Source: Blastococcus sp. PRF04-17 (GTDB lineage Bacteria > Actinomycetota > Actinomycetes > Mycobacteriales > Geodermatophilaceae). From it: a DNA stretch of 64,000 bases. The position numbers and the translations under genes are program-made. Below, piece by piece: positions 22,648 through 36,864 of the stretch; within the stretch, counting starts at the first letter, position 1; the number at the start of each line of letters is the position of its first letter. The DNA lies in assembly GCF_023016265.1 (NCBI RefSeq), contig NZ_CP095412.1:3286001-3350000 (forward strand), written 5' to 3'. The notes beneath the pieces are model-generated. The model saw only the letters and a list, made by a program, of their open reading frames with translations, ran no database searches and was not told the origin of the DNA.

Positions 22648-24258
22648 GTGAGCACCACAACCCTCTCCTCCTCCCGACGGCGCGCGGGTTGGTTCGCCGA
22701 TCGATCCCTGGTGGTGAAGTTCTGTGCGCTTGTCGGCGTCGTCCTCATCGCCTTCGCCGGCATCGTGGTCTCGCTGCTGATCGGCAACTCCTACGTGCGC
22801 GCGGCCAATGCACAGCTCGACCACGTCAGCCGGGCCGAGCAGCTGGTACTCCAGTTGGACACGCGCGCCAGCGAGCTCAAGGTCGACGGCTTCAAGGCGA
22901 TCTCGCGGGAGAACCCGGCCGAGCAGCTGCCCGAGCTCGCCGATGACATCGCCACGCCGGAGGCGCTCCTCGCGGAGCTCGGCGAGATCCACCTGGCCGA
23001 TGTGCCGGCCGCCGCGAATGCGGTGGCCGAGCTCACCGAGTCCTACTCCGCGTACACCGCCGCGATCACCGCGTTCGTGGAGTCCGCCGTGGCCGATCAG
23101 GCCGGCACCCGCCTCCGGTGGGAGGAGATCCAGGCGGCCAACGACCTCACCGACGGTGCGGTGGGTGCTGCCAAGGACGAGCTCGCCGTCGCCTACAAGG
23201 CCGCTGAGGCCGATCTCCATACGAGGATCGACACCGCCGAGTACGTCAGCCTGGCGACCGGCATCGCCGGCTTGGTCCTGGTCGCCGCCATCAGCATGCT
23301 CACGATGCGTTCCATCGTCGGTCCCGTGCGCACGGTCAAGCTGTCGCTGGAGGCGTTGGCCACCGGCAACCTCACCGTGCCGACCGGCGTCCGCAGCAAG
23401 GACGAGATCGGTCAGATGGCCGCGGCCCTCGACGCTGCTCAGGCGAACCTGCGCGACGTCCTGTCCACGGTGGTCTCCTCCGCGGATGCCGTCGCGGCGT
23501 CGTCGGAAGAGCTCTCCGCCAGCGCTGCGCAGATCTCGGCGTCGGCGGAGGAGACGAGCGCGCAGTCCGGTGTGGTGTCCGGTGCGGCTGAGGAGGTCTC
23601 GCGCAGCGTGGAGACGGTGGCGGCCGGCGCCGAGCAGATGGGTGCCTCCATCCGGGAGATCGCGTCGAACGCGGCGGAGGCCAGCGAGGTGGCGACGAGG
23701 GCCGTCGCAGCGGCGGAGACCACCACTGCGACGGTGGCGAAGCTGGGTGAGTCCTCGGCCGAGATCGGCAACGTGGTGAAGGTGATCACCAGCATCGCCG
23801 AGCAGACCAACCTGCTGGCGCTCAACGCCACCATCGAGGCCGCACGCGCCGGTGAGGCGGGCAAGGGCTTCGCCGTGGTGGCCAACGAGGTCAAGGAGCT
23901 GGCGCAGGAAACGGCCAAGGCGACCGAGGACATCGCCAAGCGCGTGCTGGCCATCCAGGGCGACACCACCGCGGCGGTGAACGCGATCGAGGAGATCTCG
24001 AGCATCGTCGCGCAGATCTCCGACCGGCAGACCACCATCGCGTCCGCGGTGGAGGAGCAGACCGCGACCACGAACGAGATGTCGCGGTCGGTGCAGGAGG
24101 CCGCGACCGGTACGAGCGAGATCGCGGCGAACATCACCGGGGTCTCGGCAGCCGCCGGCTCGACCACCCAGGCACTGACCCAGACGCGGACCGCGGTCGA
24201 TGAGCTCTCCCGCATGGCGTCCGACCTCCGCAGCAGCGTCGGGAGGTTCACCTACTGA
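22648..24258 (+). CDS. methyl-accepting chemotaxis protein 1
   Basis: A 536-residue transmembrane chemoreceptor. TM1 is at about residues 25-46, an all-helical periplasmic ligand domain at about 47-198 and TM2 at about 200-219. A HAMP linker follows ([21 protein letters not shown]), then the signalling cassette at 278-536. The hairpin tip [31 protein letters not shown], which docks CheA and CheW, is intact. The protein ends RFTY with no CheR-tethering pentapeptide. GTG 22648 follows AGGACGG. The last 780 nt are nearly the same as in four other receptors in this window, whereas the sensor halves are unrelated, so the receptors differ in ligand but share output. A strong hairpin follows. Confidence 0.93.
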
Positions 24259-24278
24259 GGAGATCCCGTCTCCATGAG

Positions 24279-24315
24279 GAGGGAGGCTGCGACCGCACCG
24301 GTCGCAGGCTCCCTC
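24279..24315 (+). terminator. hairpin after chemoreceptor 1
   Basis: 17-base arms (24279-24295 and 24299-24315, one mismatch) with loop CAC, 20 nt after the stop and followed by TTCTC. The receptor gene is probably transcribed alone. Confidence 0.78.
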
Positions 24316-24344
24316 TTCTCGCATTCCAGGGTTCGTTCGCGACT

Positions 24345-24350
24345 GTCGAC
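24345..24350. promoter_or_regulatory. GTCGAC element, chemoreceptor 2
   Basis: TGTCGACTC, 170 nt before the start at 24515; the weakest member of the set, since the base after GTCGAC is T rather than A and no GAATGG is nearby. GGTCGCCGA follows at 24370. Confidence 0.35.
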
Positions 24351-24514
24351 TCGACGATTCGGCCGAAACGGTCGCCGATCAATCTGCGTCTTCTCGTGCG
24401 ACACGTTCTCTCAGCGCTAAGCAATCCGCGGAGGCCGTCGACGATGCAATTGCGCATCACGCGCCACAGCGGCGAAGCCCCGTCGCTGTGGACGGTCGAG
24501 AAGGAAGCAGCACC

Positions 24515-26155
24515 ATGTCCCTGAACCGCTCTGCACCACACACGTCCGTTCCGCGGCACTGGTACCGCGACCGCGGCGTCCGTACGCGGGTGTTCGGCCT
24601 GGCCGCCGTCCTCCTGGTCGGGCTCGTCGGCTCGACCGCCGTTGCCGCTGTGAACGGCACTCGCGCGATGGACCTGCAGGAGCAGGCCGACACCGCGGTG
24701 GTCGTCCAGCAGGCCGTGGAGGCGGCGCGGTACGACCTCCTCTGGGCCGCCAACTGGCAGAACATCACCGCCTGGAAGGCGCGCGTCGAGGGCGGCGCGG
24801 CCGCCGCTGCCCCTGACGGCGACAACGTCGCCGCCTACCGCGACGGAGCCGAGGGTTTCGAGCAGCTCTTCGCGGTCGACCGCAGCCTCCTCGACGAGAC
24901 GGGGCGCACCAGCCTGGAGACGATCGAGACCAACTGGGCGACGATGAGCGCCTACAACGACCAGATCTTCGCGCTGTGGGAGCAGGGCCGCCTGGACGAG
25001 GGCGACGCGGTCTCCACCGGCGAGAAGTGGGACGTGTTCTACGTCCTCGACCAAGCCATGACCGAGCTGGTCGCCTCGGTCGACGGGCGGGCCGCGCAAC
25101 TGCGCCAGGAGGCCCGCGACGCCGACTCGTCCACCCGCGACATCGCCGTCCTAGTCACCGTCCTCGCCGCTCTGGGCGGCCTGCTGGTGGCCTTCATGGT
25201 CTCCCGGGGGATCGTCCGCGGGGTGCGGGAGGTCCGCGGGGGGCTGGACCGCGTCGCGGCCGGTGACCTCACCGTCCGGCTGCCGGTGCGCGGCCACGAC
25301 GAGCTCGGCCAGATGGCTGCGGCGCTGAACACGGCCACCGAGGCCATGGCAACCACCGTCTCGGACATCGTCAGCTCCGCCGACGCGGTGGCGGCGTCGT
25401 CGGAGGAGCTGAGTGCCAGCTCGGCTCAGATCTCGGCGTCGGCCGAGGAGACCTCCGCGCAGTCCGGTGTGGTCGCCGGTGCCGCGGAGGAGGTCTCGCG
25501 CAGCGTCGCGACGGTCGCCGCGGGCGCCGAGGAGATGGGGGCCTCGATCCGGGAGATCGCGTCGAACGCGGCCGAGGCGAGTCAGGTGGCCGACCGCGCC
25601 GTGGCCGCGGCCCGCGACACGACTGTCACGGTGGCGAAGCTGGGTGACTCGTCGGCGGAGATCGGCAACGTGGTGAAGGTGATCACCAGCATCGCCGAGC
25701 AGACGAACCTGCTGGCGCTCAACGCGACGATCGAGGCGGCCCGGGCCGGTGAGGCGGGCAAGGGCTTCGCGGTGGTCGCCAACGAGGTCAAGGAGCTGGC
25801 GCAGGAGACGGCGAAGGCGACCGAGGACATCGCCAGGCGGGTGCTGGCCATCCAGGGTGACACCACCGCGGCGGTGACGGCGATCGAGGAGATCTCGAGC
25901 ATCGTGGGCCAGATCAGCGACCGGCAGACCACGATCGCCTCGGCGGTGGAGGAGCAGACGGCCACGACCAGCGAGATGTCCCGGTCGGTCCAGGAGGCCG
26001 CCGGCGGCACGACGGAGATCGCCGCGAACATCACCGGCGTCTCCACGGCCGCGGAGTCCACGACACAGGCGCTGGGTCAGACGCGCACCGCGGTCGACGA
26101 GCTCTCCCGCATGGCCGCGGACCTGCGCACCGCCGTCGGGAGGTTCACCTACTGA
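24515..26155 (+). CDS. methyl-accepting chemotaxis protein 2
   Basis: A 546-residue chemoreceptor. TM1 lies at about residues 27-48 ([21 protein letters not shown]) and TM2 at about 210-230 ([20 protein letters not shown]). Between them is a helical sensor domain rich in Trp and Glu that resembles the one in chemoreceptor 5 ([11 protein letters not shown] here, [12 protein letters not shown] there). HAMP and the 259-residue signalling cassette (288-546) follow, with the tip [24 protein letters not shown] intact. Its cassette is the most diverged of the five (for example [21 protein letters not shown]). Start ATG 24515 has GAAGG upstream. It ends RFTY without a pentapeptide. Confidence 0.93.
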
Positions 26156-26176
26156 CGACGGCCTCCAACTCGAAGG

Positions 26177-26207
26177 GGGTCGGCGACCGACATCCGGTCG
26201 CCGGCCC
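26177..26207 (+). terminator. hairpin after chemoreceptor 2
   Basis: 13-base arms GGGTCGGCGACCG and CGGTCGCCGGCCC (one G-U pair) around ACATC, 21 nt after the stop. Confidence 0.72.
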
Positions 26208-26295
26208 TCTCCGGGATTCCGAGCCGCCCGGACACGTGTCGATGGGACGGCCGACAGCCTCGCTGTCGACCGGTCGGGGGCGCCTTCCACGATGG

Positions 26296-26346
26296 CGCTG
26301 CGCGCTCTCCCCCATGGCTGCCGACCTGTACCAGCGTCGGGCGATC
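26296..26346 (+). pseudogene. decayed 3'-end remnant of a chemoreceptor
   Basis: The frame LSPMAADL (26305-26328) aligns with LSRMAADL near the end of the intact receptors, and the nucleotides CTCTCCC-CATGGC-GC-GACCTG match there almost base for base. Flanking similarity fades at once and no start or tip region is present. It lies in a 448-nt stretch without a gene (26156-26603), together with a hairpin and the promoter-like elements of the next gene. Short, so moderate confidence only. Confidence 0.45.
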
Positions 26347-26432
26347 TCCCCATTGACGACGCCGCGGAGCAGCGAGGGGTGATGCCGTTTCCGGCCGCCA
26401 TCCCCTTTCTCATGCGTCCGGCAGTTCGACTA

Positions 26433-26456
26433 GTCGACATGTGAATGGCGGTCGCC
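26433..26456. promoter_or_regulatory. GTCGACA, GAATGG and GGTCGCC elements before the eroded receptor
   Basis: GTCGACA (26433-26439), GAATGG (about 26443-26448) and GGTCGCC (26450-26456) lie together 171 nt before the start at 26604. The eroded gene still keeps the same upstream elements as the working receptors. Confidence 0.45.
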
Positions 26457-26603
26457 GAACAATTCCTGCCGGTGATCGGGACACGACGTCTTTTCCGGCC
26501 GACGATCGGGCCCTCGGCCCTAACTTTCTCCACCTGTGACGCGTGTGACTCCTGGTGCTGCAGGGATTCCGCGCACCCGATCAACTCCCGCACGGAGAGC
26601 TCG

Positions 26604-27926
26604 GTGACCATGACCGCTCCAGCCTGTAGCCCCGCCCGCCGCCGAGGTGGCCCGTCCGCCGATCGGCTCCCCGCCGGCAGGTATCTCACCGTGCTCGCCC
26701 TGAGCGCGAGCATCGGAGTGCTGCTCTGCGTGGGCGCTGCCGGTCGCATCGATCAGCTGGACGACAGCCGGCGCGCGCTCCACGAGGGGCACGTCGTCGC
26801 CTCCTCCGACCTGGGCGCCATCCAGGCCACCTACGAGGCCGTGCGACACGGGTACACCGCCTACTCGCTCGCCGACGTGGCCGACCGCGGTGCGCACGAG
26901 GAGCGGCTGGCCAGTGGTCGCGCACAGCTCGAGGAGCAGCTCGAGGCCTACGCCGGCCGCACCCGGCACCCGGACCGCGTCAGCACCCTGACCGACCACA
27001 TCGGGAGCTATTTCGCAGTCCGCGACGGCGGACTGCACTCGCCGCTGGACGACGGCAACCCGGGCGTCGCCGGCGCGATCGTGACCGGCCCCCTGGCCGA
27101 GGTGCACAACGCGGTTACGCAGGACTTCATCGGCCTGCGGACCGAGATCCGGGAAGACGCAGACGGGCGGGCGCGGACCGGTGGTGACGCCGCGCCCTCG
27201 GCCCGGATGCTGGTGTGGGCGTTGCTCGGATGGAGCCTGCTCTCATGCGTGGCGACCGTCGCCGTCGCTCGGCCCGTCAGGCCGGCCGTGCGCCGTCGCC
27301 GGGGGCACGCCCACGCTCCCGCCGATGACGGGGTGATCGTGGGCCCCGAGGTTCCGTTCGTGGAGAAGACCAGCGCACCCACCATCGAGGTCTCCGAGGC
27401 GGCCGACGAGGTCGGCCCGGATGGGCCCACCCACGCGGCTCGGGTGGCTCCGGTGGTCGGGACCACGAGGCCCCCCGTCGTGCGCCTCCGACACCCGTCG
27501 ACCGATGTCGCCGAGATGGTCAAGGTGGTTCGCAGCATCACGGACCAGACCTACGTGCGGGCGCTCGACGCGGCGATCGAGGCGGCGCGAACCGGCGCCG
27601 TCGGCCGGGATTCCGGCGGGCGGGCGACGACGGCCGAGCAACCCTCGGCAGGGTCGGCGCGAGTGGACGAGAACGCACCCCGGGAGTCGGCGGCCACCCG
27701 GGGTGGCGGTATCGCGGTGCGGGCGGCCATCGAGGCGATCCCGACCCTCGAGGGTGACGGACGCAATCGGCAGACCGCCGTCGGGACGACCGAGATCTCG
27801 GGGGACACCACCGGCGTTCCGGCTGCGGCCCAGGCCACGCAGGGGTCCGCGCAGACGGTCGCGGCCGTGGACGACCCGTCACGGATGTCGGCGGATCCCC
27901 GAACCTCGCTCGGGAGAGCTGCTTGA
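26604..27926 (+). CDS. eroded chemoreceptor-like membrane protein (signalling domain degenerate)
   Basis: A 440-residue open frame. The front half looks like a receptor: TM1 near residues 28-48 (YLTVLALSASIGVLLCVGAAG), a helical sensor region and TM2 near 202-222 (LVWALLGWSLLSCVATVAVA). HAMP and the first cassette helix are replaced by unrelated low-complexity sequence. Of the tip, DQTYVRALDAAIEAARTGAVG remains where relatives have [21 protein letters not shown]; the return helix is mostly gone, with traces such as TTEISGDTTGVPAAAQATQ and SRMSADPRTSLGR. It should not bind CheA/CheW normally. GTG 26604 (GGAG 6 nt upstream) was chosen over ATG 26610. The frame is intact, so it is either a pseudogene without stops, helped by high GC, or a repurposed membrane protein. 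Confidence 0.65.
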   Translation: MTMTAPACSPARRRGGPSADRLPAGRYLTVLALSASIGVLLCVGAAGRIDQLDDSRRALHEGHVVASSDLGAIQATYEAVRHGYTAYSLADVADRGAHEERLASGRAQLEEQLEAYAGRTRHPDRVSTLTDHIGSYFAVRDGGLHSPLDDGNPGVAGAIVTGPLAEVHNAVTQDFIGLRTEIREDADGRARTGGDAAPSARMLVWALLGWSLLSCVATVAVARPVRPAVRRRRGHAHAPADDGVIVGPEVPFVEKTSAPTIEVSEAADEVGPDGPTHAARVAPVVGTTRPPVVRLRHPSTDVAEMVKVVRSITDQTYVRALDAAIEAARTGAVGRDSGGRATTAEQPSAGSARVDENAPRESAATRGGGIAVRAAIEAIPTLEGDGRNRQTAVGTTEISGDTTGVPAAAQATQGSAQTVAAVDDPSRMSADPRTSLGRAA

Positions 27927-27985
27927 CGACGAGCATCACGGCACGCGTGGTGCCTTGGTACGGGCCTCTGCGCGCTCTCCGTCGG

Positions 27986-28090
27986 GCCGGCTCCACCACG
28001 CAGGCGCCGACCCAGACGCGCACCGCCGTGGACGAGTTCTCACGGACGGCCGCCGATCTGCGCGCCACCGTCGAGAAATTCACCTGCTGA
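27986..28090 (+). pseudogene. 3'-end fragment of a chemoreceptor gene
   Basis: A 35-codon stretch ending in a stop reads [19 protein letters not shown], then RTAADLRATVEKFTC. Intact receptors here end [18 protein letters not shown], then [15 protein letters not shown]. There is no start codon or upstream cassette in frame. It lies just after the eroded receptor, which has its own degraded copy of the same end, so at least two receptor copies once stood here. Substitutions relative to the living genes show it is older than the near-identical copies downstream. Confidence 0.75.
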
Positions 28091-28154
28091 CCTCTCGGCG
28101 GACTGGCTCTGCGTGCATTTCTCCCAATCGTCCCGGAGTGACCACGATCGCCAT

Positions 28155-28205
28155 GTCGACAGACGGGAAGAAGTGACCCGCACCTCGGGTCAAGAATGGG
28201 AAACA
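28155..28205. promoter_or_regulatory. GTCGACA and AGAATGG elements, chemoreceptor 4
   Basis: GTCGACA at 28155-28161 and CAAGAATGGG at about 28193-28202, 224 and about 180 nt before the start at 28379. Here the order of the two elements is the reverse of that before chemoreceptors 5 and 6. Confidence 0.42.
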
Positions 28206-28378
28206 TCGAGCGGTAGGAGCGTTTCGGTGGTTTTCAGTGCATTTCCCCGGGCCTATGTTCTCGCCCGTCCGGCAGGAGCAGCGGTGCTCACGTACCGGAA
28301 CCCCGCGCACGTGCCGCGCAGGCACGTCCCACACCCCTCTTCCCGCGGCCGGCGGCCTGTCCAAGGAGTACTCGAGTC

Positions 28379-30028
28379 ATGTCCCACACACCTGCAGGGC
28401 CGGGCGAGGTCCCCACCACCGCGTCGGCGTCCAGACCCACCGCCTGGTGGGGGGACAGGGGCGTCCGCACCAAGACCCTCGCTGCCGTGACTGTCACGGC
28501 GCTGGTCGCCCTCGCCATCGGCCTGCTCGGCCTGTCCGCCCTCAGCGCTGCTGCCGACCGCACCCAGGTCATGCACGACACGAACATCGCTGGCCTCGAG
28601 GTGGTCGCCGAGATGCAGACCGCCATCGCCAACGTGCGGGTGTCGACCCGTGACTCCCTCATCACTCCCACCGACGAGGAGTCTGCGGAGGCGGCAGTCC
28701 TGCTCCAGGAGCGCATCGCCGACTTCCGCGCCGCGGTGGAGCACTACGGCGAGACGAACCCCACTGAGGAGAAGCGCGCGCTCGTCACCGAGGCGGTCGC
28801 GAAGTTCGACGCCTACGAGTCCGCCATCGCCGACGTCCTCACCCCGCTGGCCGACGCCAACGACCTGGACGCCTGGTGGGCGGCCAACAAGACGCAGGCG
28901 GCTCCTCCCGCAGCCCAGGCCCAGGAGATCCTGCAGCAGGTGCACGACCTCGAGGTGGAGGCCGCCGACGAGGCAGCCACGACCGCACGCGAGTCCTACG
29001 AGAGCCAGCGGACACAGGTCGTCCTGCTCCTGACCGTCGGCATCGCGGCCGCCCTGGGCGTCGGGTTGCTGGTGGCGCGGGCGATCGCGACGGGTGTGGG
29101 CAAGGTGCAGGCGGTGGCGGAGGCGTTGGCGGCTGGTGATCTGACGAAGTCCAGTGGCCTGACCACGAGGGACGAGTTGGGCCGGATGGGTCAGTCCTTG
29201 GATGCGGCGGTGGGTCAGCTGCGGGAGGTGCTGGCCACGGTGGTGGGTTCGGCGGATGCGGTGGCGGCGTCGTCGGAGGAGCTCTCCGCCAGCTCGGCGC
29301 AGATCTCGGCGTCGGCGGAGGAGACCTCCGCGCAGTCCGGGGTCGTCTCGAGCGCGGCGGAGGAGGTCAGCCGCAACGTGCAGACGGTGGCGGCCGGGGC
29401 CGATCAGATGGGGGCATCGATCCGGGAGATCGCGTCGAACGCCGCGGAGGCCAGTGAGGTGGCGACCCGGGCCGTCGCGGCCGCGGAGACCACCACTGCG
29501 ACGGTGGCGAAGCTGGGTGAGTCCTCGGCCGAGATCGGCAACGTGGTGAAGGTGATCACCAGCATCGCCGAGCAGACCAACCTGCTGGCGCTCAACGCCA
29601 CCATCGAGGCCGCGCGCGCCGGTGAGGCGGGCAAGGGCTTCGCCGTGGTGGCCAACGAGGTCAAGGAGCTGGCGCAGGAGACGGCCAAGGCGACCGAGGA
29701 CATCGCCAAGCGCGTGCTGGCCATCCAGGGCGACACGACCGCGGCGGTGAACGCGATCGAGGAGATCTCGACCATCGTCGCGCAGATCTCCGACCGGCAG
29801 ACCACCATCGCGTCCGCGGTGGAGGAGCAGACCGCGACCACGAACGAGATGTCGCGGTCGGTGCAGGAGGCCGCGACCGGCTCCACCGAGATCGCCTCGA
29901 ACATCACCGGGGTCTCCACGGCCGCGGAGTCGACCACGCAGGCGCTCACCCAGACACGCACCGCCGTGGACGAGCTCTCCCGCATGGCCGCGGACCTGCG
30001 CACCACCGTCGGGAGATTCACCTACTGA
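28379..30028 (+). CDS. methyl-accepting chemotaxis protein 4
   Basis: A 549-residue chemoreceptor with TM1 at about residues 33-56 ([22 protein letters not shown]), a four-helix-bundle (4HB_MCP-like) sensor domain (about 57-210; [23 protein letters not shown] is typical), TM2 at about 212-232, HAMP, and the common cassette at 291-549 with an intact tip. Start ATG 28379 has AAGGAG about 9 nt upstream. From residue 291 on it is almost identical in DNA to chemoreceptor 5. It ends RFTY; no pentapeptide. A perfect hairpin 20 nt after the stop separates it from the next receptor. Confidence 0.93.
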
Positions 30029-30048
30029 CGTGGTCGTATCGCCCGTGG

Positions 30049-30085
30049 ACGGGGGTGGCACCGAGCTCATCGGTGTCACCCCCGT
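30049..30085 (+). terminator. hairpin after chemoreceptor 4
   Basis: 16-base arms (ACGGGGGTGGCACCGA and TCGGTGTCACCCCCGT, one G-U pair) with loop GCTCA, followed by TTGCATTT. Confidence 0.8.
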
Positions 30086-30116
30086 TTGCATTTCCCGACC
30101 CATGCGCTCGGGTCGA

Positions 30117-30133
30117 GAATGGCTTTGTCGACA
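30117..30133. promoter_or_regulatory. AGAATGG and GTCGACA elements, chemoreceptor 5
   Basis: GAATGG at about 30117-30122 and GTCGACA at 30127-30133, separated by four bases, 154 nt before the start at 30281. Same order and similar spacing as before chemoreceptor 6. Confidence 0.45.
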
Positions 30134-30280
30134 CAGTCGGCAAGGGTCACCGACATTTCTCCGGCCAATGCGCGACACGGTCGCGGAGAAGGCGGCGCTG
30201 GAAATCGAAACACCTTAGATCGACGTCACACGCGTCCCGCGATGCCCGTGGGCATCGCCGTCCAGAGACAAGAGGAACGA

Positions 30281-31921
30281 GTGAGCATGACTCGCAGCAA
30301 CACGTCGTCCGCACGCCGCAGGACCCTCGGCGTCCGCGGCAAGATCCTCGCGGTAGGGGCGGCCGGAATGGTCGCCGCCGGAGCGGTCGGCGTCCTGGGC
30401 GTGCTGTCACTGCAGAGCGCCACCGCCGCGCTCGACGAGGTCCAGGGCCTCCAGAGCGCCCTCAGCGCCGTGCAGGACATCGAGACGTCGAACTCGGACG
30501 TCACGGGCTGGCAGGCCTCGTACGCGTGGGACACGCGCCGCATCGGCGGTGCGGCGGCGGTCGCCGACGACAACGCCAACCGGGCCGGCTTCCTCGACAG
30601 CGCCCAGCGGCTGCGCGAGAACCTGGAGGCGGTGCCCACGCAGGTGCTCACCGGTGAGGAGCGCTCCACCTTCGCCACCATCCAGGAGCAATGGGACGCG
30701 TACTTCGCGGTCGACGACGAGATCGTGCGGACCTATGCCCAGAACACCCCGCCGGCGCTCGACGCGGGCGACGCGCTCGTCGTCGGCCCGGGCTGGGACG
30801 TCTACTACCAGGTCTTCACCCTGACCACCGACCTGCGCAAGTCCCTCCAGGAGCGCAGCGACGCGGCGGTGGCGCACGCGCACGCCAACGAGAGCCGCGG
30901 GAAGTGGATCATGCCCCTCGCGATCGCCTTCGGGCTCGTCGTCACCCTGGTCCTCGCGCTGGGCATCTCCCGCCGGATCGTGCGGCCGCTGCAGGCGGTG
31001 GCGTCCGTCGCGTCGGCGCTCGCGAAGGGCGACATGACCGTGTCCTCCGGGGTGCGGTCCAGCGACGAGGTGGGTCACGTCGCCGCCGCGCTCGACGAGG
31101 CGCAGGAGAGCCTCCGGGAGGTGCTCGCCGGCGTGGCCGCCTCGGCCGATGCGGTGGCGGCGTCGTCGGAGGAGCTCTCCGCCAGCTCGGCGCAGATCTC
31201 GGCGTCGGCGGAGGAGACCTCCGCGCAGTCCGGGGTCGTCTCGAGCGCGGCGGAGGAGGTCAGCCGCAACGTGCAGACGGTGGCGGCCGGGGCCGATCAG
31301 ATGGGGGCATCGATCCGGGAGATCGCGTCGAACGCCGCGGAGGCCAGTGAGGTGGCGACCCGGGCCGTCGCGGCCGCGGAGACCACCACTGCGACGGTGG
31401 CGAAGCTGGGTGAGTCCTCGGCCGAGATCGGCAACGTGGTGAAGGTGATCACCAGCATCGCCGAGCAGACCAACCTGCTGGCGCTCAACGCCACCATCGA
31501 GGCCGCGCGCGCCGGTGAGGCGGGCAAGGGCTTCGCCGTGGTGGCCAACGAGGTCAAGGAGCTGGCGCAGGAGACGGCCAAGGCGACCGAGGACATCGCC
31601 AAGCGCGTGCTGGCCATCCAGGGCGACACGACCGCGGCGGTGAACGCGATCGAGGAGATCTCGAGCATCGTCGCGCAGATCTCCGACCGGCAGACCACCA
31701 TCGCGTCCGCGGTGGAGGAGCAGACCGCGACCACGAACGAGATGTCGCGGTCGGTGCAGGAGGCCGCCGCCGGCTCCACCGAGATCGCCTCGAACATCAC
31801 CGGGGTCTCCACCGCGGCGGAGTCGACCACGCAGGCGCTGACCCAGACACGCACCGCCGTCGACGAGCTCTCCCGCATGGCCGCGGACCTGCGCACCACC
31901 GTCGGGAAGTTCACCTACTGA
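30281..31921 (+). CDS. methyl-accepting chemotaxis protein 5
   Basis: A 546-residue chemoreceptor. TM1 at about residues 20-43 ([21 protein letters not shown]), a helical sensor domain resembling that of chemoreceptor 2 ([25 protein letters not shown]), TM2 at about 208-229, HAMP, then the shared cassette (288-546). GTG 30281 has GAGG five bases upstream; ATG 30287 is an alternative two codons later. A 207-base block (31099-31305) is identical to chemoreceptor 6, a sign of very recent duplication or gene conversion. The C terminus is KFTY rather than RFTY, shared only with chemoreceptor 6. Confidence 0.93.
31099..31305 (+). repeat. 207-base identical block, copy in chemoreceptor 5
   Basis: Identical base for base to 32999-33205 in chemoreceptor 6. 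It covers the end of the HAMP region and the first cassette helix. The wider 780-base cassette occurs five times (23479-24258, 25376-26155, 29249-30028, 31142-31921, 33042-33821), always with the same length. Confidence 0.9.
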
Positions 31922-31936
31922 ACCTCCGCACAGACG

Positions 31937-31974
31937 GAGGGGCGGTGACCGGGGCCTTCCGGTCACCGCCCCTC
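31937..31974 (+). terminator. perfect hairpin after chemoreceptor 5
   Basis: Perfect 16-base arms (GAGGGGCGGTGACCGG and CCGGTCACCGCCCCTC) with loop GGCCTT, followed by TTCTCGT. Confidence 0.85.
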
Positions 31975-31999
31975 TTCTCGTCCCCGGAATGCGTTCCCA

Positions 32000-32019
32000 G
32001 AATGGGCGCCAAGTCGACA
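32000..32019. promoter_or_regulatory. AGAATGG and GTCGACA elements, chemoreceptor 6
   Basis: GAATGG at about 32000-32005 and GTCGACA at 32013-32019, 195 nt before the start at 32208; GGTCGCG follows at 32030. CCTAACTT, also found before the eroded receptor, lies near 32099. Confidence 0.45.
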
Positions 32020-32207
32020 TGGAAAAGGCGGTCGCGACGCTTTTTGACCCGCCGTTCTCGACACGCCGTCGTGCCGCCGTCGCTCGAATCGTCCGCGTCC
32101 TAACTTCTGTCCGTCACACCGGCACCACGGGGCGCATCCGCATCCCGAGTACGGCGCAAGGCCGTTGCGTCCCGTCGCGCACCATTCGTCAACCCTGGAG
32201 AACGACC

Positions 32208-33821
32208 ATGTCCGTCCGCACCCCCGCCCCGCGCACGAGCCGGTTCAGCTGGTTCGCCGGGCGCCCGATCGGCGTCAAGATCGGTGCCGCCCTGACCGTC
32301 CTGGCCGTCGTCGCGGTGGGCCTGACCGGCCTCGGCGCCGCGCGCATCGCCACGCTCGCCGACGCGGCGCAGCGGCTCGACACCGACAGCATCGTGCCGT
32401 TGGAACGGCTGGGTGAGGCGCAGCGGACCTTCCAGGGCAGCCGCGCCCGCAACAACCTCTACGCCATCGCGTCCGCGGACACCCGCGAGGCGCTGCGCGC
32501 CGACCTCGCGGAGCGGAAGGACCAGTTCGACGCCGAGGTCGCCGTCTACGTCGACACGCTGAGCGACCCGGCCGACTTCGCACCCGTGCAGGAGGCCATC
32601 GCCGCCTACGACGCGGTCGTCACCGGACAGCTGTACCCCACGGTCGACGCCGGCGACACCGCCGCTGCCCTGGCCGTCGCCGAGGGCCCGTTGGCCGAGG
32701 CCGGCCGGGCGCTCTCGGATGCCTTCGGAGCCGAGCAGGCCCGGCAGGGGAAGGACGCCACGCGCGACGCTGCGGCGGCGCAGGACCTCGCCAGCCAGTC
32801 CATCCTGATCCTCTGGTCGGCCCTGGCTGCCGGCATCCTGGTCGCGGGGTTGCTGGGTGTCTGGGTGGTCCGCCAGATCGTCCGCACCGTCCGATCCGTG
32901 CAGACCTCGGTGGACGCGCTGGCGATCGGGGACCTCACGGTGACGCCCGAGATCCGATCCGGCGACGAGCTCGGCCGGATGGCCGGCGCGCTCGCCGCGG
33001 CGCAGGAGAGCCTCCGGGAGGTGCTCGCCGGCGTGGCCGCCTCGGCCGATGCGGTGGCGGCGTCGTCGGAGGAGCTCTCCGCCAGCTCGGCGCAGATCTC
33101 GGCGTCGGCGGAGGAGACCTCCGCGCAGTCCGGGGTCGTCTCGAGCGCGGCGGAGGAGGTCAGCCGCAACGTGCAGACGGTGGCGGCCGGGGCCGATCAG
33201 ATGGGTGCCTCCATCCGGGAGATCGCGTCGAACGCCGCGGAGGCCAGCGAGGTGGCGACGAGGGCCGTCGCGGCCGCGGAGACCACCACTGCGACGGTGG
33301 CGAAGCTGGGTGAGTCCTCGGCCGAGATCGGCAACGTGGTGAAGGTGATCACCAGCATCGCCGAGCAGACCAACCTGCTGGCGCTCAACGCCACCATCGA
33401 GGCCGCACGCGCCGGTGAGGCGGGCAAGGGCTTCGCCGTGGTGGCCAACGAGGTCAAGGAGCTGGCGCAGGAAACGGCCAAGGCGACCGAGGACATCGCC
33501 AAGCGCGTGCTGGCCATCCAGGGCGACACCACCGCGGCGGTGAACGCGATCGAGGAGATCTCGAGCATCGTCGCGCAGATCTCCGACCGGCAGACCACCA
33601 TCGCGTCCGCGGTGGAGGAGCAGACCGCGACCACGAACGAGATGTCGCGGTCGGTGCAGGAGGCCGCCGCCGGCTCCACGGAGATCGCCTCGAACATCAC
33701 CGGGGTCTCCACCGCGGCGGAGTCGACCACGCAGGCGCTGACCCAGACACGCACCGCCGTGGACGAGCTCTCCCGCATGGCCGCGGACCTGCGCACCACC
33801 GTCGGGAAGTTCACCTACTAG
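32208..33821 (+). CDS. methyl-accepting chemotaxis protein 6, next to cheA
   Basis: A 537-residue chemoreceptor: TM1 at about residues 24-46 ([20 protein letters not shown]), a four-helix-type sensor (about 47-200), TM2 at about 203-224, HAMP and the cassette at 279-537. The cassette is a patchwork. Its first 207 bases are identical to chemoreceptor 5, the middle carries bases found only in chemoreceptor 1 (GGTGCCTCC, GCGACGAGG, CAGGAAACG, GACACCACC), and the end again follows chemoreceptor 5. There is no clear terminator in the 138 nt before cheA, so receptor and kinase may share a transcript. Start ATG 32208, with GGAG eight bases upstream. Confidence 0.93.
32999..33205 (+). repeat. 207-base identical block, copy in chemoreceptor 6
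   Basis: Identical to 31099-31305. Identity breaks at the base after ATGGG, where this copy switches to the chemoreceptor 1 variant, marking a probable conversion boundary. Confidence 0.9.
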
Positions 33822-33959
33822 GGCCCGACCTGCCCCACGGGTGCCGATAAACACCGAGGACGGCGGACGCCGGCGGGCTCGCCTCGAGTCCACCGGCGTC
33901 CCGCCGATGACCCGACGGGGGCGACTGCGCCCCTGGCAACGAGAGAGAAGGCAGCAACG

Positions 33960-36410
33960 GTGGACGGTCTGGACGACATCGTCGAGGAGTTCCTGGTCGA
34001 GAGCCACGAGAACCTCGACCAGCTCGACTCCGATCTCGTCGCCCTGGAGCAGGACCCGAACTCCCGCGAGCGGCTGTCGAGCATCTTCCGCACGATCCAC
34101 ACCATCAAGGGCACCTCGGGCTTCCTCGCGTTCAACCGGCTCGAGGAGGTCACCCACGTCGGCGAGAACATGCTCTCCCGCCTGCGGGACGGCGAACTCG
34201 CGCTGACGCCGGCGCGCACGAGCGTGCTCCTGCAGATGGTGGACACGGTCCGCTCGCTGCTCACGTCCATCGAGGCGTCAGGTGGCGAAGGCCCCGTCGA
34301 CGTCTCCGCCGTCGTGGCCGCGATCACCGCAGCCATGGAGGACGCACCGGCCGCTGCACCGGCCGCCGTCCCCACCCCGCGGACCGAGGCGGCCCCGGCC
34401 AAGGCCCCGGCCAAGGCTCCGGCCAAGGTCGCCGCCAAGGTCCCGGCCAAGGTCGCCGCCAAGGCCCCGGCCAAGGTCGCCGCCAAGAAGGCGCCGGCGA
34501 AGAAGGCCGCCGCGGCCACCACCCGCAGGGCGGCGGCGCCCGCTCCGGTCGCGGAGCACGCGCCCGTCCCGGAGGGGCAGCCGGAGGACACGAGTGCCGT
34601 CCTCGAGGAGACCAGCCGGGAACCCGCCCTCGACCACCCCGAGGGCGAGTCCGCGACCGCCGACGGCGCCGGCGGCCACGCCCGCCGCGCCGTGGCCGAC
34701 AGCACCATCCGGGTGGACGTCGACCTGCTCGACGAGCTCATGCTGCTCGTCGGCGAGCTCGTGCTCACCCGCAACCAGATCGTGCAGAACGTCGCCCGGT
34801 CGACCGACACCGACCTGATCCGCGCCTCCCAGCGGCTGAACCTGATCGCCAGCGAGCTGCAGGAGGGCGTCATGAAGACGCGGATGCAGCCGATCGACCA
34901 CATCTGGTCCAAGCTGCCGCGCGTCGTGCGGGACCTCGGTCTGCAGTGCGGCAAGAGCGTCCGCCTCGAGATGGAGGGCCGGGAGACCGAGCTCGACAAG
35001 ACCCTGCTCGAGGCGGTCAAGGACCCGCTGACCCACCTGGTCCGCAACTCGGTCGACCACGGCATCGAGGCGCCCGAGGTCCGCACGGCGGCCGGCAAGC
35101 TCGCCGAGGGCGTGCTCACCCTGCGCGCCAAGCACGAGAGCGGCCAGGTCGTCGTGGAGGTCGCCGACGACGGCGCGGGCATCGACCCGGCCAGGGTGGG
35201 CGCGAAGGCGGTGGAGCGGGGCTTGATCACCGCGGCGCAGCTGGAGCGGATGGGCCCGCAGGACATCCTGCAGATGATCTTCCTGCCCGGCTTCTCGACC
35301 GCCGCCGCCGTCACCAACGTCTCGGGCCGCGGCGTGGGCATGGACGTCGTCAAGACCAACATCGAGGCGATCGGCGGCACCATCGAGGTCGAGTCCGACG
35401 CCGGCCTCGGCACCGTCTGCCGCCTGCGCATCCCGCTGACGCTGGCGATCGTCCCGGCGCTCACCGTGGAGTGCGCCGGGGACCGCTACGCCATCCCGCA
35501 GATCAGCCTGCAGGAACTCGTCTCCCTCGACGCGGAGAAGGCCGCGAACGCGGTGGAGGAGGTCGGCGGCGCGCCCGTCTACCGCCTCCGCGGCGAATTG
35601 CTCCCCCTGGTCCGGCTCACCGACGTCCTCGGCCTGACGTCGGAGCGGCACGACGGACACGTGGTCATCGCGGTGCTCCGGTCCGAGGGTCGCCGGTTCG
35701 GCCTGGTGGTCGACCGGGTGATCAACACCGAGGAGATCGTGGTCAAGGCGGTCGGTGGCCAGCTCAAGGCCATCGGCCTGTACTCCGGGGCCACCGTGCT
35801 GGGTGACGGCACCGTCGCGCTCATCCTCGACGTCCAGGCCCTGGCCCGCCGCGCCCTGCGCACCGAGACCACCGACCGGCAGGAGGCCCGCGAGGCGGCC
35901 GCGCACCACGCCGCCGCGGAGGCCGACCGGCAGCGGATGCTGCTGGCCGCCATCGGTGGCGGTCGCCGGGTCGCGATCCCGCTGGACACCGTCACCCGGC
36001 TCGAGCAGGTCCGCACCGAGGCGGTGGAAAGGGTGGGCAACCGCGAGGTCGTGCAGTACCGCGGCGCCATCCTCCCGATCGTCCGGCTCGACCGGCACCT
36101 CGGCGCCTACGGGGAGACCGATCGCGAGGTCCTCGAGGTCATCGTCTACGCCGACCACGGGCGCAGCGTGGCCATCGTGGTCGAGGAGATCCTCGACATC
36201 GTGGACGGCGAGGCGGCCGTGCGCAGCGACATCGACGACCTCGGCCTGCTGGGCTCCGCCGTCCTCGGGGACAAGGTCACCGAACTGCTCGACGTCCGGG
36301 CGGCGATCCTCGCCGCCGACCCGGCCTTCTACAACGCTCCCCCGGCTCCGGCCGCCGGCGTCGCACCGCTGACGTCCGACGGCGTCGCCACGTCCCTGCT
36401 GGAGGTCTGA
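33960..36410 (+). CDS. cheA: chemotaxis histidine kinase CheA with two CheW domains
   Basis: An 816-residue kinase that autophosphorylates when receptors signal and passes phosphate to CheY and CheB. P1/HPt (about 1-105) carries the phosphorylated His (near residue 47, TIHTIKGTSGF). A linker at about 118-235 includes a Lys/Ala/Pro repeat (APAKAPAKVAAK). No CheY-binding P2 domain is recognisable. Then come the dimerisation domain, the ATPase (HLVRNSVDHGIE, DDGAGID, GRGVGMDVVKTNIE) and two successive CheW-like domains (about 500-630 and 655-785) instead of the usual one. GTG 33960 has AGAAGG upstream. cheW starts 1 nt after the stop. Confidence 0.95.
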   Translation: MDGLDDIVEEFLVESHENLDQLDSDLVALEQDPNSRERLSSIFRTIHTIKGTSGFLAFNRLEEVTHVGENMLSRLRDGELALTPARTSVLLQMVDTVRSLLTSIEASGGEGPVDVSAVVAAITAAMEDAPAAAPAAVPTPRTEAAPAKAPAKAPAKVAAKVPAKVAAKAPAKVAAKKAPAKKAAAATTRRAAAPAPVAEHAPVPEGQPEDTSAVLEETSREPALDHPEGESATADGAGGHARRAVADSTIRVDVDLLDELMLLVGELVLTRNQIVQNVARSTDTDLIRASQRLNLIASELQEGVMKTRMQPIDHIWSKLPRVVRDLGLQCGKSVRLEMEGRETELDKTLLEAVKDPLTHLVRNSVDHGIEAPEVRTAAGKLAEGVLTLRAKHESGQVVVEVADDGAGIDPARVGAKAVERGLITAAQLERMGPQDILQMIFLPGFSTAAAVTNVSGRGVGMDVVKTNIEAIGGTIEVESDAGLGTVCRLRIPLTLAIVPALTVECAGDRYAIPQISLQELVSLDAEKAANAVEEVGGAPVYRLRGELLPLVRLTDVLGLTSERHDGHVVIAVLRSEGRRFGLVVDRVINTEEIVVKAVGGQLKAIGLYSGATVLGDGTVALILDVQALARRALRTETTDRQEAREAAAHHAAAEADRQRMLLAAIGGGRRVAIPLDTVTRLEQVRTEAVERVGNREVVQYRGAILPIVRLDRHLGAYGETDREVLEVIVYADHGRSVAIVVEEILDIVDGEAAVRSDIDDLGLLGSAVLGDKVTELLDVRAAILAADPAFYNAPPAPAAGVAPLTSDGVATSLLEV
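34392..34512 (+). repeat. coding repeat for the CheA Lys/Ala/Pro linker
   Basis: Tandem GCCCCGGCCAAG and GTCGCCGCCAAG units encoding KAPAK and KVAAK steps, like linker-histone tails. It replaces the region where a P2 domain is expected. Slippage here could alter linker length. Confidence 0.8.
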
Positions 36411-36411
36411 C

Positions 36412-36864
36412 GTGACTGCATCCATCGACACCAAGCCGCGCGCCGCCAGCGGCCAGCTGGCGACCTTCCGGCTGGACGGCGACCTGTACGGCATCGAGGT
36501 CGAGCACGTCCAGGAGGTGCTGCGCAGCCAGCAGCTCACCCGCGTTCCGCTCGCGCCGAGCGCGGTGGCCGGGCTGATCAACCTGCGGGGCCAGGTGGTC
36601 ACCGCGATCGAGCTGCGCGAGCGGCTCGGCCGCCCGGCTCGTCCCGAGGGCACCGACGCCGTCGTCATCGTCGTCCGCCTGGACGGCGAAGCGGTCAGCC
36701 TGCTGGTCGACTCCATCGCCGACGTCGTCGACGTCGATGCCAGTGACTTCGAGGCGCCCCCGGACACGCTGGAGGGGCAGGCGCGCGACCTGATCCGCGG
36801 CGCCTACAAGCTCGACGGGCAGCTGTTGCTGGCGCTCGACGTGGAGAAGGCGGTCAGCGCCTGA
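36412..36864 (+). CDS. cheW: chemotaxis coupling protein CheW
   Basis: A 150-residue CheW that bridges receptors and CheA. Typical segments: LATFRLDGDLYGIEVEHVQEVL, VPLAPSAVAGLINLRGQVVTAIELRERLG and VSLLVDSIADVVDVDASDFE. The first 15 residues are a short flexible extension. GTG 36412 follows the cheA stop by one base, so expression is coupled. A long hairpin follows 46 nt after the stop and probably ends the cheA-cheW transcript. Confidence 0.95.
   Translation: MTASIDTKPRAASGQLATFRLDGDLYGIEVEHVQEVLRSQQLTRVPLAPSAVAGLINLRGQVVTAIELRERLGRPARPEGTDAVVIVVRLDGEAVSLLVDSIADVVDVDASDFEAPPDTLEGQARDLIRGAYKLDGQLLLALDVEKAVSA

Follow-up and report, generated by a model that had tools for sequence, protein, structure and literature searches.

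The plus-strand open reading frame at 26604–27926 of the 64,000-nucleotide stretch of Blastococcus sp. PRF04-17 DNA analyzed here (the window) encodes an eroded chemoreceptor, hereafter X, whose two halves have decayed to different extents. The cytoplasmic half (N-tail, HAMP, methylation helices and hairpin) has evolved almost without constraint, while the sensor, both membrane helices and an upstream module have lost much less. It is fairly clear that constraint was lost first in the output half, and in the sensor half either afterward or incompletely. We lean toward a reading in which an ordinary four-helix-bundle chemoreceptor gave rise to X and the sensor is kept, under weakened selection, without signaling output.

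Results

Between 22.5 and 33.8 kb the window carries five intact chemoreceptor genes together with X, all on the plus strand. The array is followed by CheA (33960–36410; Hpt, dimerization and ATPase domains, and two matches to CheW-like domains) and CheW (36412–36864), so X no longer fits a pathway that the genome does carry. The host genome, from the family Geodermatophilaceae, is a single contig of 4,585,415 bases. Apart from X it has 10 matches to MCPsignal, of which one is partial (profile positions 9–126, in a 345-residue frame). In the pairs compared, the signaling halves of the intact receptors (23357–33819) share approximately 91–95% of their residues within and between genomes, and the sensors of the same receptors 38–73%. 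Near-identical signaling halves with diverged sensors fit, as expected, either conversion between paralogs or strong constraint.

The reading frame of X begins at GTG 26604, which has a ribosome-site-like GGAG 6 bases to its 5′ side, or at ATG 26610, and in the open reading frame listing of the window it runs to the stop at 27924–27926 without an internal stop. Two hydrophobic helices, TM1 (YLTVLALSASIGVLLCVGAAG, 26682–26744) and TM2 (MLVWALLGWSLLSCVATVAVA, 27207–27269), flank an extracytoplasmic four-helix sensor (26745–27206), the arrangement of a working MCP; the sensor is assigned from its 48 of 65 invariant positions, from predicted helices and from structural matches to ligand-binding domains. 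A HAMP relic (27270–27359) keeps 7 of 18 invariant positions and ends at a 49-codon loss. It is followed, at 27360–27605, by a methylation-helix relic with a 24-codon loss near 27413 and by a recognizable hairpin arm (approximately 27498–27605) that extends to EAARTGAVG, an assignment based on a Pfam MCPsignal piece covering profile positions 25–68. The return arm (27606–27722) is scrambled, with 6 of 35 invariant positions kept, and a C-terminal relic with a 23-codon loss near 27783 completes the frame (27723–27923). At the hairpin tip, QTNLLALN has become QTYVRALD. Nucleotide identity between X and an ortholog is 0.47 in the scrambled return arm, compared with 0.60 in the rest of the half. 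The open frame, the two membrane helices and the sensor-like region described in the first-pass annotation are all borne out, the sensor being 45–46% identical to that of a receptor in the congener G005. Its account of the hairpin, as one recognizable arm with the rest scrambled, holds for the two arms and stops short of a further recognizable piece in the C-terminal part (27772–27916).

Homology of X to receptors is well above chance (E = 4.4e-52). The only Pfam match, however, is to MCPsignal, over 44 residues and at 35.4 bits against a cut-off of 34.6. HAMP is absent from the Pfam matches both of whole X at E ≤ 1 and of its two pieces at E ≤ 10, and 4HB_MCP_1 has no match in X; the ortholog is matched by both HAMP (4.2e-9) and 4HB_MCP_1 (2.9e-9). 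The signaling coiled coil with its conserved hairpin tip is incomplete, retaining 44 of 172 profile positions and 56 of 150 invariant sites.

We modeled X with AlphaFold from an alignment of six rows, X and the five window paralogs. The model has four helices in residues 22–220, with ten-residue pLDDT means of 63–92 from residue 31 onward, mostly above 70. Residues 228–438 have pLDDT below 50 and form a shapeless tail that lacks long paired helices. With the same six rows, the intact paralog at 31989–33821, used as a control, has long cytoplasmic helices at a pLDDT of approximately 41–72. In Foldseek the sensor model matches Vc1313 (best E = 9e-4, TM score 0.75–0.79 by target); its matches to the ligand-binding domains of Tar, Tsr and MCP2201 are weaker.

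X is matched in all 16 genomes of the genus, mostly via the signaling domain. A tree of sensor halves (53 receptors from 14 genus genomes, G010 and G012 being left out) contains a single ortholog, the G005 receptor, with an open frame of 547 codons. A scan of the family (112 genomes) turned up sensors 61–65% identical to that of the G005 ortholog in four genomes, all from a sister genus. The four orthologs used below comprise one from the congener and three from the sister genus (L031:7022–8665, L044, L045 and L047); L046, from the fourth sister-genus genome (G048), was left out. L044, L045 and L047 have a full receptor frame, and the broken orthologs that the first-pass annotation had named as a sign of simple decay are absent, the four examined being full-length receptors. 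X groups with the orthologs at a support of 96/100 to 100/100, on a branch of 1.13–1.23 changes/site compared with 0.09–0.29 in the orthologs; when only the sensor and membrane helices are used, its branch is 0.91 compared with 0.11–0.38. The closest sensor in the genus is 45% identical (X as query), and identity of X to the orthologs from the 112 family genomes (G005 sensor as query) is at most 47–51%. A genome collection yielded two ortholog loci with the alignment as query and no match with X alone as query; X is known from one genome. Among the matches listed in the 112-genome scan are eight further short open frames (<500 residues), which we rejected as sensor-only relatives: four lie at contig ends, and four are minus-strand matches starting less than 400 bases from the contig start.

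We measured retention at sites invariant in the four orthologs. X keeps 48 of 65 such sites in the sensor, 12 of 20 or 12 of 21 in the membrane helices and 7 of 18 or 8 of 19 in HAMP (two alignments), 5 of 10 in the N-tail and 56 of 150 in the signaling half. By the same rule 11 intact receptors retain 0.65–0.97 of the sensor, 0.47–0.87 of the helices and 0.85–0.98 of HAMP, and seven intact receptors retain 0.96–0.99 of the signaling half. The difference in X between sensor and signaling half is significant (Fisher, 8e-7; 9e-5 without the scrambled block), although at stricter sites, invariant in 10 receptors of several sensor families, it is not (18 of 36 sensor versus 48 of 128 signaling, p = 0.18). 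Codon positions 1, 2 and 3 of the signaling half differ between X and the ortholog by 0.38, 0.37 and 0.49, compared with approximately 0.06, 0.05 and 0.28 between one intact signaling half and another. The extra changes in X therefore fall on all codon positions, the pattern expected without selection. The GC content of X has likewise moved off the coding pattern, at 56–63% in the second codon position and 86–88% in the third, compared with 44–56% and 91–97% in the six intact genes measured.

Codon models were run with custom scripts. In a branch model X has a rate ratio of 0.42 in the signaling half (background 0.07) and 0.59 in the sensor half (background 0.21). A two-phase model, in which a constrained phase is followed by a free phase, gives with one rate class 0.25–0.30 free substitutions/site for the whole sensor half (N-tail and HAMP included) and 0.35 for the signaling half. 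Under this model the halves do not differ, which counts against a split. The split shows up once the parts are cut at the membrane, a division that, like the membrane-helix test below, was chosen after the sequence had been seen. When two site classes are allowed, the free phase is fitted best on the grid by 0.4 for the cytoplasmic part, 0.15 for the sensor and 0.20 for the sensor with helices; making both parts share a grid value costs 8.3 log units (sensor) or 4.6 (sensor with helices) even at the best such value. Given a free phase of 0.41 the sensor has a rate ratio of approximately 0.3, and a ratio of 1.0 costs 13.9 log units. The intact controls O and L044 prefer a free phase of 0 in both parts (four values tried). 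For the X sensor, leaving out the free phase costs 8.6 log units; its level of constraint is below normal. The central observation of the first-pass annotation, an eroded signaling half beside a better kept sensor and membrane helices, is upheld by both the retained sites and the two-phase values with two site classes. A dN/dS near one, its other sign of plain decay, is seen in the cytoplasmic free phase; in the sensor the ratio is approximately 0.3 if both halves were released together.

Relative to the ortholog, X has lost blocks of 49, 24 and 23 codons (96 in total) and a few single codons. All three blocks lie in the cytoplasmic half, the longest at the join between HAMP and the coiled coil, and all are in frame: the long matching blocks on both sides of the losses share one frame. 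This was read from a nucleotide alignment of X with five receptors under lenient gap costs, which yields many tiny blocks and was used just for the frame of the long ones. With random indel lengths the chance that three large losses are all in frame is approximately 0.04 (hand estimate). The marks of a pseudogene, stops and frameshifts, are absent. We rejected a uniform frameshift in the scrambled block, since shifts of up to 6 bases match at ≤0.40 compared with 0.47 in the direct register; a compensated pair of small shifts inside the block is possible. Under neutral drift of 0.25–0.36 substitutions/site, the probability of no stop is 0.014–0.072 for whole X and 0.16–0.34 for the signaling half alone. 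Given these values the open frame is weak as proof of selection, and X had been picked in the first place for being open; it is suggestive, not decisive. Antisense open frames of 532–685 codons also lie opposite receptor genes on the minus strand (25151–26749, 28253–30178 and 32100–34157), and open frames of this length argue that an open frame means little in GC-rich DNA.

The membrane helices have no polar or charged residue (D, E, K, R, Q, N, H) and no proline in the 41 positions of TM1 and TM2 scored, and approximately 59% of their residues differ from the inferred ancestor. Under neutral drift the chance of such clean helices is 0.0006–0.004 at 0.25–0.30 substitutions/site and 0.02–0.03 at 0.15.

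Upstream of the frame, at 26433–26485 on the plus strand, lies a module common to many receptors: GTCGACAT, 7 bases, GCGGTCGCCGAACAATTC, 12 bases and GGGACACG. We examined 60 upstream regions, X included, and derived a consensus from the 36 others that score at least 17. X has 22 of the 24 high-consensus positions at the usual spacing, and the 36 consensus receptors have 19–24, which confirms the earlier claim that X shares its upstream elements with working receptors. Among its neighbors in the window the module is present at three of five (24488, 30086 and 31989), the other two scoring at background (22573 and 28379). Across the genus (L031–L043) it takes the form GTCGACA, usually 7 or 15 bases, a GCGGTCACCGACCAATCT-like element, usually 11–13 bases, and GCGACACG. 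The sole mismatch-free match to a two-part pattern in the host genome is the X module, a partly circular result in that the pattern carries the X spacing. The chance of keeping at least 22 of 24 positions under the same drift is approximately 0.025 or 0.007 by a hand calculation that takes retention as approximately 0.73 or 0.68 and ignores best-match discovery. The module is perhaps a promoter or operator of chemotaxis genes.

X is not the only receptor remnant in the array. A separate stump on the plus strand at 27985–28092, in a frame different from that of X, encodes 32 residues and a stop and is the tail of another lost receptor; it is 78–87% identical to the tails of the five neighbors over 97–105 bases, and in a second comparison it matches with E = 2.1e-19. 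A possible third tail, 5′ of X (26302–26356, plus strand), is weak: it is 79–83% identical over 40–47 bases, with E values of 2e-6 to 4e-4 against the tails and only 0.18 in a second comparison. Other receptor arrays of the genus also hold stumps of the last ∼65–250 bases of a receptor gene (L039:11170–11312, L043:7352–7598 and, weakly, L033:12367–12431, E = 0.002), matches cut by contig ends having been set aside, and loss of a receptor seems to leave its tail behind. At L042:7813–8356 a receptor signaling domain is present without its middle. In G003, an open stretch of approximately 1267 codons with two receptor hairpins (L036:7604–11407, minus strand) is possibly a frameshifted or fused receptor; a separate partial match to the signaling profile lies at L036:9432–9781 (profile positions 554–903), and another, a receptor tail near the array end, at L036:5430–5594 on the minus strand (739–903, E = 3e-40).

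Discussion

In the reading toward which we lean, transcription of X would continue alongside that of the other receptors, its two helices would anchor it in the membrane, and the sensor would still fold and may bind ligand. It would be unable to switch CheA, because HAMP, the adaptation sites and the kinase-contact tip are gone, and ligand binding would then be a dead end: X would act as a sink for ligand, or would be a membrane sensor that works with a different partner. Selection on the sensor would be weakened rather than gone, at approximately 0.3 of the neutral rate. The narrower proposal, that selection maintains X as a co-regulated, membrane-anchored sensor that lacks output and either acts as a ligand sink or provides input to a new partner, we advance tentatively and with less conviction; ligand titration by X is possible and, for now, a putative role. 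Mixing into receptor arrays, also suggested in the first-pass annotation, is unlikely: X has lost or scrambled its HAMP, methylation helices and hairpin, and with them the parts that chemoreceptors require to form trimers and to contact CheA/CheW.

The principal alternative is death in two stages: release of the output half came first, while the sensor stayed under constraint for a time, and later the whole gene became useless. X would now be a decaying pseudogene whose frame is open by chance. The sensor fits a neutral last phase of 0.15 as well as it fits ongoing weak constraint (lnL −2255.6 versus −2255.5), so that the sensor-only protein proposed earlier gains from the earlier loss of constraint in the output half but not from the sensor likelihood, which is almost equal. 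The chance of clean helices at 0.15 substitutions/site (0.02–0.03) is not negligible, the signaling half would be free of stops by chance at 0.16–0.34, and other receptor stumps occur in this and related arrays. Such a death nevertheless needs clean helices, the module, the lack of a stop and three in-frame losses all to survive, each of which is mildly unlikely. We rate it a plausible course of events that we rather doubt, and place retention of the sensor without output slightly ahead of it because the clean helices, upstream module and intact frame agree. A fresh pseudogene hidden by high GC, as the first-pass annotation had considered, does not fit, because the cytoplasmic half carries approximately 0.4 unconstrained substitutions/site.

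A younger front and an older back would also result from recombination, had the promoter and sensor half of an old, dead receptor recently been overwritten by a less decayed copy of a relative, and the near-identity of intact signaling halves (91–95% of residues in the pairs compared) is in keeping with this. No closer sensor donor was found, however, the best being 45% identical in the genus and at most 47–51% in the 112 family genomes, and the genome collection yielded just two ortholog loci; we consider such a chimera highly improbable. We give equally little credence to a repurposed regulator in which the altered cytoplasmic tail works with a new partner and selection acts on that tail. 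The frame of the tail is kept through three losses, and repurposing has a precedent in the part of the literature considered here (PMC12623472), but the tail has a free-phase rate close to neutral, is predicted to be disordered and is shared by none of the four orthologs.

The orthologs (L031:7022–8665, L044, L045 and L047) are 4HB_MCP/TarH-type MCPs, and X resembles them in the order of its parts, two membrane helices, predicted four-helix sensor, upstream module and place in a receptor array. It differs in having no HAMP match, in methylation helices and return arm that are lost or scrambled, in the 96 codons deleted in three blocks and in a cytoplasmic half that drifts freely. The precedent for repurposing is Tls of E. 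coli B2 strains, a Trg remnant that comprises part of the cytoplasmic signaling domain behind a short new N terminus and sequesters FlhDC (PMC12623472). As described there, Tls is like X a chemoreceptor remnant that persists outside chemotaxis signaling, but it is the mirror image, having kept the cytoplasmic side where X kept the sensor side (PMC12623472). The Campylobacter tlp families likewise have near-identical C-terminal signaling halves and some members that are pseudogenes; in the passages considered, these are recognized either because adding or removing one or two nucleotides mends them or because a large deletion is present, whereas X is free of frameshifts and much more diverged (PMC6433261). 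A literature search found no description of a sensor-only chemoreceptor with a drifting output half, which does not prove that none exists.

Tandem receptor arrays gain and lose members, and X is a member whose halves are decaying at different speeds; its intact orthologs make the timing of that decay measurable. For X, in this soil bacterium, the choice lies between a sensor retained with no signaling output and a gene whose death comes in two stages. If selection has ceased, X is a clear instance of a gene dying in stages, and it cautions against reading much into a frame that stays open at high GC. If selection on the sensor continues, bacteria are able to retain the ligand-binding half of a receptor whose chemotaxis output has been lost, and a decoy function becomes testable. 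Should X indeed persist as a sensor alone, the halves of a chemoreceptor can be selected separately.
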